DNA from: Blastopirellula sediminis
Lineage (GTDB): Bacteria > Planctomycetota > Planctomycetia > Pirellulales > Pirellulaceae
NCBI RefSeq assembly: GCF_020966755.1
Contig: NZ_JAJKFT010000002.1
Location: 124,001 to 188,000 of the forward strand
DNA: 64,000 nt
Reading direction: 5' to 3'
The translations under genes and the position numbers were made by a program. Shown piece by piece: positions 18,596-20,775 of this stretch. Below the pieces are notes generated by a model. The model had not been told where the DNA came from and made no database searches. It saw only the letters and a list, made by a program, of their open reading frames with translations. Position 1 is the stretch's first letter. Each line of letters opens with the position of its first letter.

Positions 18596-18780
18596 AGGAG
18601 ATGTCCGATGGCTGGGTGGTGGGGTTGCGTACGTTTCTAGCCTAAACCGTTGGCACGTAAGGTGCAATTCCTGCGTCTCGAGGGGGCTTAGCGACATTGT
18701 CAACGCCGCCGGAGCCCGGTTTAATGAACCGACGGATATCACTACAGACGGAGCGATTGCAAGCTAAGGAACGACCTCTC

Positions 18781-19659
18781 ATGGATTTTTGCGAAGGATT
18801 TGAGCATTTTGTGCGGACGCAGGAACCGTTGGCCTCGTACGCGTGGCTGCGGATCGGCGGCACGGCGGAGTTTTTCGCCGAACCGAACAACACGGCGGAA
18901 CTGGCCGCGCTGCTCAAACGTTGCCGTGAGCAGGAAAAGCCGGTCCGGTTGCTCGGCGGCGGCTCGAATCTGCTGATCCGCGACGAAGGGATCGCCGGGG
19001 TCGTCGTTCGGCTGAGCCATCCCTCCTTCTCGAACATCGAAGTTGACGGCACGAGCGTCAAATGCGGCGGCGGAGCTCGCCTGGCCAATGTCGTCTCGAC
19101 CACCGTCGGTCTCGGCCTGGCCGGGCTCGAATCGCTGGTCGGCATCCCCGGCACCATGGGTGGCGCCTTGCGGGGAAACGCTGGCAACAATGGCGAAGAC
19201 GTCGGCCGCTGGGTTTCGAACGTCGACGTGATGTCGGCGGACGGCGAAGTCCGTAAATGGGGCGCCGGCGAACTCCGGTTCTCGTACCGCGAAAGCAATC
19301 TCGACGAATTCGCGATCCTCGGCGGCGAGCTGAAGCTCGAAAAAGGGGACGCCGCCGAGTTGACCCGCCGCATGCAAAAGCAGTGGATCGTCAAACGGGC
19401 CGCCGAGCCGCTGCCGGAACAAAACATCGCGATCCTCTTCCGCAATCCGGCCGATGTGAGTGCTGCTAGCTTGATCGAGCAAGCAGGCCTTCGCGACGCT
19501 TCGGTCGGCGCCGTGAAGCTATCGGAACGGAACGCCAACTTTGTCGTCGCCGGTCCCGGAGCCAAGGCTGCGGACGTGCTGCAACTGATGGAATTGGTCC
19601 GCAGCCGCGTCCATGAAGTCTTCGGCATCGAGCTGAATAACGGGCTCACCATCTGGTAG
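18781..19659 (+). CDS. murB: MurB-like flavoprotein lacking catalytic residues
   Basis: A 292-aa homologue of UDP-N-acetylenolpyruvoylglucosamine reductase (type II). The FAD-binding half is conserved: RIGGTAEFF, LLGGGSNLLIRDEG and GIPGTMGGALRGNAG, plus RFSYRES. The catalytic part is not. The proton-donor serine of the family's G-S-x-F motif is Ile218 (AILFRNP), and the C-terminal catalytic glutamate of the IELxxE segment is Gly288 (IELNNGL). From known MurB mechanism it should not reduce enolpyruvyl-UDP-GlcNAc efficiently. The ATG at 18781 follows an AAGGA site; the longer frame from 18697 is rejected. An FtsQ-like gene follows on the same strand, recalling dcw cluster order. Confidence 0.85.
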   Translation: MDFCEGFEHFVRTQEPLASYAWLRIGGTAEFFAEPNNTAELAALLKRCREQEKPVRLLGGGSNLLIRDEGIAGVVVRLSHPSFSNIEVDGTSVKCGGGARLANVVSTTVGLGLAGLESLVGIPGTMGGALRGNAGNNGEDVGRWVSNVDVMSADGEVRKWGAGELRFSYRESNLDEFAILGGELKLEKGDAAELTRRMQKQWIVKRAAEPLPEQNIAILFRNPADVSAASLIEQAGLRDASVGAVKLSERNANFVVAGPGAKAADVLQLMELVRSRVHEVFGIELNNGLTIW

Positions 19660-19878: not shown

Positions 19879-20775
19879 GTGAGTCGTCCAACGCGCAACG
19901 CCGCGCCAACGCGTTTTGGTCTTGCCGATCCGCTTGGGCGCCAGCTTTGGATCTGCGCCTTGATGGTGGTCCTGTTCATCGGCGGCGCCTACGCTTTGTC
20001 GCGCTCGATCGCTTCGAACGAAGCGGAGGATCTCTACGTCGTCACCAAAGAGCGAATCTCCTTCACCGCTCCGCCGGAGTGGATCGCCGAAGGAGTGCTG
20101 CAACAAGTCGCCGACGTTCTCTTCGCCGACAAAAAGTCGTTCGACGTCCGTGATCGCGATTTGACCAAGAACATCACTGCGGCGATCGAAGCGGCCGAGA
20201 ACCCGTGGGTCAAGTCGGTCGACCGCGTCGTGAAGTATTACCCGACCAAGGTCTTGGTCGACATCCAATACCGTCGCCCGGTCGCGATGGTCGAAGTCAA
20301 AATGAAGATCGAAGACGCCGATTGGGGTTTGATCCCGGTCGACGCCGACGGAGTCATCTTGCCCGGCCGTGGCAACGACTATCTCGAAACGAATCGCAAA
20401 CACTTCCCCCGCATCAACCTGGGCGGCGTCGCTCCCGAAGGAACAAAGAAGCCAGGGCACGAGTGGGGCGACACGCGCATCGCCGAAGCGGCTCGTATTG
20501 CCGATTCGCTCGGCGGCGTCTGGACCCGCTTGGGCTTCCACCGGATCGTCGCCTCGGCGAGCGAAGAAGGACGCAACGTCTACGAACTCCACACCGCTGA
20601 AGGCGCTCATCTGATCTGGGGGAGCGCTCCTGGCGCCGAACGCCCGCATGAAAACAGCGCGGCCCAAAAAGTCGGCATGCTGCTCGCCCTGCAGCAAACC
20701 CAAATCGCCGCCGGCGAAATCGACCTGCGAACCCCAGCCGAGCTAACGTCGAACACCGCCCCCGCCGCCCGTTAA
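19879..20775 (+). CDS. FtsQ-like POTRA-containing membrane protein
   Basis: A 298-aa protein. It has a basic cytoplasmic N-terminus, one membrane helix at about residues 23-45 (WICALMVVLFIGGAYALS), then a periplasmic region. The segment AAIEAAENPWVKSVDRVVKY followed by YPTKVLVDIQYRRPVAMVEV resembles the FtsQ/DivIB POTRA-to-beta-domain motif (NPWVxxAxVxRxxPxTLxIxVxErxPvA), and IPVDADGVILP matches the FtsQ 'D-x-G' strand. FtsQ recruits FtsB/FtsL in FtsZ-based divisomes. It follows the degenerate MurB gene by 219 bp. The start is GTG with GGGAG upstream. The FtsQ assignment rests on local motifs and gene order. Confidence 0.65.
   Translation: MSRPTRNAAPTRFGLADPLGRQLWICALMVVLFIGGAYALSRSIASNEAEDLYVVTKERISFTAPPEWIAEGVLQQVADVLFADKKSFDVRDRDLTKNITAAIEAAENPWVKSVDRVVKYYPTKVLVDIQYRRPVAMVEVKMKIEDADWGLIPVDADGVILPGRGNDYLETNRKHFPRINLGGVAPEGTKKPGHEWGDTRIAEAARIADSLGGVWTRLGFHRIVASASEEGRNVYELHTAEGAHLIWGSAPGAERPHENSAAQKVGMLLALQQTQIAAGEIDLRTPAELTSNTAPAAR

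Follow-up and report, generated by a model that had tools for sequence, protein, structure and literature searches.

The MurB-like protein encoded in the window, by which we mean the whole 64,000-nucleotide stretch of Blastopirellula sediminis DNA analysed here, keeps the FAD-binding motifs of its family but carries replacements at both the catalytic Ser/Cys and the catalytic Glu. The first-pass annotation had described such an active-site loss for this one protein, and that much held, though its scope proved wider, with the loss being repeated, found across the class Planctomycetia, and tied to the absence of MurA. We consider it rather probable that this MurB was retired from UDP-MurNAc synthesis after MurA was lost, and that it has been kept for another FAD-dependent role, possibly together with FtsQ.

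The gene (18781..19659, plus strand) encodes a 292-residue protein that is the only MurB of its genome, and whose family membership is assigned from profiles, an AF2 model, and fold matches in the PDB. It passes the curated NCBI cut-offs for murB (NF010480, 260.9 bits against 259; TIGR00179, 176.9 against 144.5), matches PF02873 and PF01565 over its full length, and can be aligned near full length with solved MurBs. Because Met1 is conserved among the homologs, the ATG at 18781 was preferred over an upstream TTG as the start. The AF2 model (mean pLDDT of 94.4) displays a complete MurB fold, with a TM of 0.95 to PDB 4pyt and 0.91 to Staphylococcus aureus 1hsk. Here, all three flavin motifs are intact, just as had been claimed earlier: RIGG in the FAD-binding module (residues 24-27; 18850..18861, plus strand; G26 and G27 in ~99% of Pirellulaceae copies), and the FAD-binding loops LLGGGSN (residues 57-63; 18949..18969, plus strand; G59 0.99, S62 0.88, and N63 0.90 of Pirellulaceae copies) and GIPGTMGG (residues 121-128; 19141..19164, plus strand; G121 0.97, P123 0.98, G124 1.00, and G127 0.95). 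From these kept motifs, we infer that the protein would bind FAD. Moreover, by alignment, two tryptophans are absent from the canonical MurBs compared, these being Trp202 (19384..19386, plus strand), which is near-invariant in Planctomycetia copies, and the C-terminal residue Trp292 (19654..19656, plus strand), which is invariant in Planctomycetia MurB. In the larger MurA-less set described below, Trp292 is present in 156 of 157 copies, the one exception being a copy ended by a contig edge. We also noted long open reading frames antisense to murB at window positions 18642-19652 (for instance, one of 336 residues on the minus strand), most likely an effect of codon composition.

In the active site, Ile218 (19432..19434, plus strand) occupies the column of the proton-donating Ser/Cys, and Gly288 (19642..19644, plus strand) that of the catalytic Glu. 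The same placement is obtained by alignment with the S. aureus 1hsk, 4pyt, Thermus, and Brucella MurBs. In an alignment-free count, without a single disagreement, residue 218 lies two positions before the invariant Phe220 and the C-terminal Trp comes four positions after residue 288, and anchoring on these two residues rules out an alignment artefact at either site. The first-pass annotation had named the serine of a G-S-x-F motif, which is the right column, but the ancestral residue here is Cys, as the MurA-containing relatives read GCIFKNP and belong to type IIb, which uses Cys. Arg170 of FSYR (19288..19290, plus strand), the third residue of the active site, aligns with the Arg of the S. 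aureus YRNS and is kept, as it is in 94/103 Pirellulaceae copies. Three congeneric genomes, at 88-92% identity, carry the same Ile218 and Gly288, which rules out a single-species oddity and, with the variability ranks of the two columns given below, a sequencing error. It had been allowed earlier that a Ser and a Glu might be supplied from other positions, and for this the sequence offers no support: there is no Ser, Cys, or Thr between residues 212 and 224, no acidic residue lies beyond Glu284 (which has a counterpart in canonical S. aureus MurB as well), and the predicted fold is canonical, as judged by the match to 4pyt. Going by these residues, the window MurB has probably lost UDP-MurNAc formation. 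In E. coli MurB, Ser229 is the general acid (Benson 1997, as cited in PMC3689657), and in the Pseudomonas aeruginosa enzyme, NADPH and the enolpyruvyl substrate are both held in place by Glu335 and the backbone of Ser239 (PMC3689657). Survival of NADPH oxidation in the window MurB is therefore not assumed, and a simply retained NADPH half-reaction is not favoured, since the residues lost also hold NADP.

The genome (7.05 Mb, 99.96% complete) belongs to the same genus as Blastopirellula marina DSM 3645 (88% identity; L032). That another MurB might make its peptidoglycan, one of two options raised beforehand, is excluded by a genome search that returned the one MurB only. MurA was not found, and the only EPSP-synthase homolog was rejected as a candidate, as it scores as AroA (428 bits against 59 for murA). 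With MurA absent, the MurB substrate has no known source in the cell. The genome also holds no transpeptidase domain and no FtsW/RodA, MurC, MurD, and MurF are missing, and the Mur-ligase superfamily is represented by FolC and a MurE-like protein only. The latter (L159:1800-3386, contig C2 of the same genome, outside the window) is degenerate, in that it keeps the P-loop, with SAIS in place of DNPR and RGAPN in place of the KGHE-type residues; judged from these motifs, its decay appears to be of the same kind as that of the MurB active site. Related Pirellulaceae show MurE motif loss of the same kind to varying degree (locus L155 keeps DNPR). A single protein, seen as a fragment, matches PF00953 (MraY or WecA).

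To place these observations in the class, we surveyed 159 Planctomycetia genomes that were at least 90% complete, and found MurB in all 159 and MurA above its curated cut-off in 46. Among MurBs sampled from MurA-containing lineages, 36/36 keep Ser/Cys/Thr218, Glu288, and Arg170 (28 of these from one family), as against 6/85 from genomes in which the absence of MurA was shown directly (Fisher p = 7e-25, with relatedness ignored). Both 218 and 288 are lost in 39 of these 85, only 218 in 21, and only 288 in 19. The triad is intact in 7/157 of a larger MurA-less set, where for many Pirellulaceae genomes the absence of MurA was assigned from their family instead of being tested directly. With the three active-site columns left out of the tree, the minimum number of changes is at least 10 for the intact state, at least 30 for column 218, at least 29 for column 288, and at least 5 for MurA. 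Well-supported branches provide three independent pairs, none against the trend (sign test p = 0.25), and so the link between MurA and the active site rests on direction and breadth, not on a formal test.

Genomes with two MurB copies serve as internal controls. In G158, the MurB beside a MurA-like gene has intact Cys/Glu/Arg, while the orphan MurB has Tyr/Gln/Gly. Likewise, G115 and G141 each hold a murA-like/murB pair with Ser/Glu (L165:4350-6597 and L166:5302-7408, respectively) and an orphan MurB with Met/Asn. Read from the residues, all three genomes agree and fit the view that cells making UDP-MurNAc would use the intact copy. The G115 pair is neighboured by flippase-like, glycosyltransferase-like, O-antigen ligase-like, and nucleotide-sugar dehydrogenase-like genes. 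This apparent exopolysaccharide cluster suggests that a bacterium lacking peptidoglycan genes may have MurNAc in an exopolysaccharide, and such a pair might explain the MurNAc detected in such strains. Separately, other divergent MurB-like second copies (L142, L139, and L140, from G106, G045, and G126, respectively) have Ser/Thr at the catalytic column and ~30% identity to the window protein.

The variability of alignment columns follows the same division. From MurA-containing to MurA-less lineages, mean column entropy goes from 0.32 to 0.59 bits in the FAD shell and from 0.13 to 1.90 bits in the catalytic shell, both shells having been picked by motif. A site-blind ranking of 288 columns by gained variability in MurA-less lineages places 218 first and 288 fifth, and there the FAD columns and the C-terminal Trp stay fixed. 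The dN/dS of murB is 0.05-0.085 between congeners and 0.01-0.13 in other Pirellulaceae pairs, values that are approximate because some dS are high, and the frames are open. At 0.05-0.085, murB is not a decaying pseudogene, and we rejected a neutral pseudogene on this ground and on that of the open frames. Three lines speak instead for a function that the MurB-like protein still has: purifying selection on it, its retention throughout the class, and the preserved FAD shell. The new redox or regulatory role proposed in the first-pass annotation is a candidate that would be compatible with this evidence.

Directly downstream of murB lies the proposed partner, a membrane protein of predicted FtsQ fold (19879..20775, plus strand), as judged by AF2, Foldseek, and synteny. 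Its model (pLDDT of 86.5) has the N-terminal membrane helix (residues 18-49), POTRA, and beta domain of the FtsQ fold. In a Foldseek search against the PDB, the eight best matches were all FtsQ (E of 2e-9 to 2e-6), with a TM of only 0.41-0.48 by target length. Sequence profiles are marginal for this FtsQ-like family (POTRA_1 in 6/32 homologs), and the putative FtsQ identity comes from comparing predicted folds, being weak by sequence alone. Where an FtsQ homolog was found, it is 3' of murB on the same strand in 82/82 loci, among them loci of families f1, f11, f13, and f16 and of Lacipirellula-like genomes, and the adjacency occurs in most MurA-less lineages. The homolog went undetected in some murB loci, often ones with a short flank, though L284 and L285 have long flanks and no match. 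As this adjacency is inherited from the ancestral dcw order, co-retention of murB and ftsQ hints at a joint role without proving one. In one genome without MurA (G256), a possible MurC remnant adjoins murB (L269:6506-8044; weak Mur ligase match, 24 bits).

According to the reading we prefer, loss of MurA from the lineage would have removed the enolpyruvyl-UDP-GlcNAc substrate, and the proton-donating Cys/Ser218, Glu288, and the remainder of the substrate pocket would then have come under relaxed selection, allowing repeated independent changes. The FAD module, the fold, and the surface with its lineage-specific C-terminal Trp would have stayed under strong purifying selection because, as we propose, the protein does something else. 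This new job would most likely be cytosolic and FAD-bound, with MurB regulating or partnering the FtsQ-like membrane protein encoded next to it during envelope growth or peptidoglycan-independent budding; the MurB-FtsQ partnership itself is conjecture. Counting against this explanation, the ftsQ-murB adjacency is possibly mere dcw synteny, and both genes are dispensable in Planctopirus limnophila (PMC10632474), though that species keeps the full Mur pathway. The MurNAc reported in Rhodopirellula baltica (Jeske et al., 2015, PMC4432640) is also hard to square with MurA loss in the Pirellulaceae. More tentatively, and with appreciably less confidence, Planctomycetia MurB could have gained a second, non-enzymatic job before peptidoglycan was lost, probably acting alongside FtsQ when the envelope grows or in FtsZ-independent budding, which would account for why murB outlived the pathway in every lineage of the class.

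Alternatively, MurB may have turned into an oxidoreductase of another kind, dependent on NADPH or flavin, in which FAD cycling was kept and the pocket rebuilt, differently per family, for another acceptor. The retained FAD shell and Arg170 speak for this, as do replacement residues that are fairly uniform inside some families (Asn288 in the Rhodopirellula-like clade, Arg218/Glu288/His170 in f13, and Cys218/Gln288 in f11). However, the pocket varies radically from family to family, and even inside families, which would be odd for one shared new substrate, and the NADPH-positioning residues are among those lost (PMC3689657). We regard this alternative as rather unlikely. It is quite improbable that UDP-MurNAc is still made, with water or another group as the proton donor and an unrecognised enzyme replacing MurA, for a real peptidoglycan wall. 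Although MurNAc (R. baltica included) and lysozyme-sensitive sacculi have been reported in Planctomycetes (Jeske et al., PMC4432640), and the residues are intact in a few MurA-less genomes, the genome also lacks MurC, MurD, MurF, transpeptidases, and FtsW/RodA. Moreover, both catalytic residues, one of them at the column of the E. coli general acid, are freely replaced, yet MurB is intact wherever MurA is present (36/36). Scarcely credible, finally, is a neutral relic heading for loss after the peptidoglycan pathway vanished: such a relic would suit a decaying active site and a pathway otherwise gone, but not the dN/dS and open frames given above, MurB in 159/159 genomes, conserved Trp202 and Trp292, and a canonical predicted fold, and frequent pseudogenes were not seen.

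Taken with the preferred reading, these results touch two long-running questions, namely peptidoglycan synthesis in Planctomycetes and division without FtsZ. At the level of residues, the evidence suggests that the known route to UDP-MurNAc has been abandoned in most MurA-less lineages, and automatic "MurB" annotation in these orders should not count as evidence of peptidoglycan synthesis. The murB-ftsQ pair is a specific, testable candidate for a role beyond the wall, and, if MurB did gain its second job before peptidoglycan was lost, bacteria that have no peptidoglycan genes would possess in it a conserved protein of division or the envelope that binds FAD.

Retention of orphan murB is already published. 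Henriques et al. (2025, PMC12283558) describe the loss of murA, C, D, F, G, J, and ftsW from Pirellulales, Isosphaerales, and Gemmatales, with murB conserved throughout the PVC superphylum, and Rivas-Marin et al. (2023, PMC10632474) describe murB as very conserved in Planctomycetia and non-essential in P. limnophila. The orphan murB genes of these two studies are the same genes as those treated here. As far as their accessible text goes, both score presence and essentiality with no mention of catalytic residues, and what is added here is the connection of active-site loss to missing MurA. We found no report of repeated MurB active-site loss in a literature coverage that was partial, and an earlier mention is possible. 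Among known systems, the closest are the type II MurBs, with the window protein sharing the fold of S. aureus 1hsk (type IIa, Ser; TM of 0.91 by query length) and Thermus caldophilus 2gqt (type IIb, Cys; TM of 0.82 by query length). Its FAD motifs and Arg170 are like those of type II MurB, as are the type IIb Cys and Glu of its MurA-containing planctomycete relatives. In contrast, the window protein has Cys/Ser218 and Glu288 replaced, an unconserved pocket, no accompanying MurA, and a conserved terminal Trp. In plants, PAP11 is a Mur-pathway enzyme that serves structurally in a second role, as a MurE-like subunit of the plastid RNA polymerase in organelles that are mostly without peptidoglycan (PMC12681378). 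PAP11 differs from the window protein in being MurE rather than MurB, eukaryotic, and partnered with RNA polymerase, and it is matched at 240 bits by the MurE-like protein of the window's genome.
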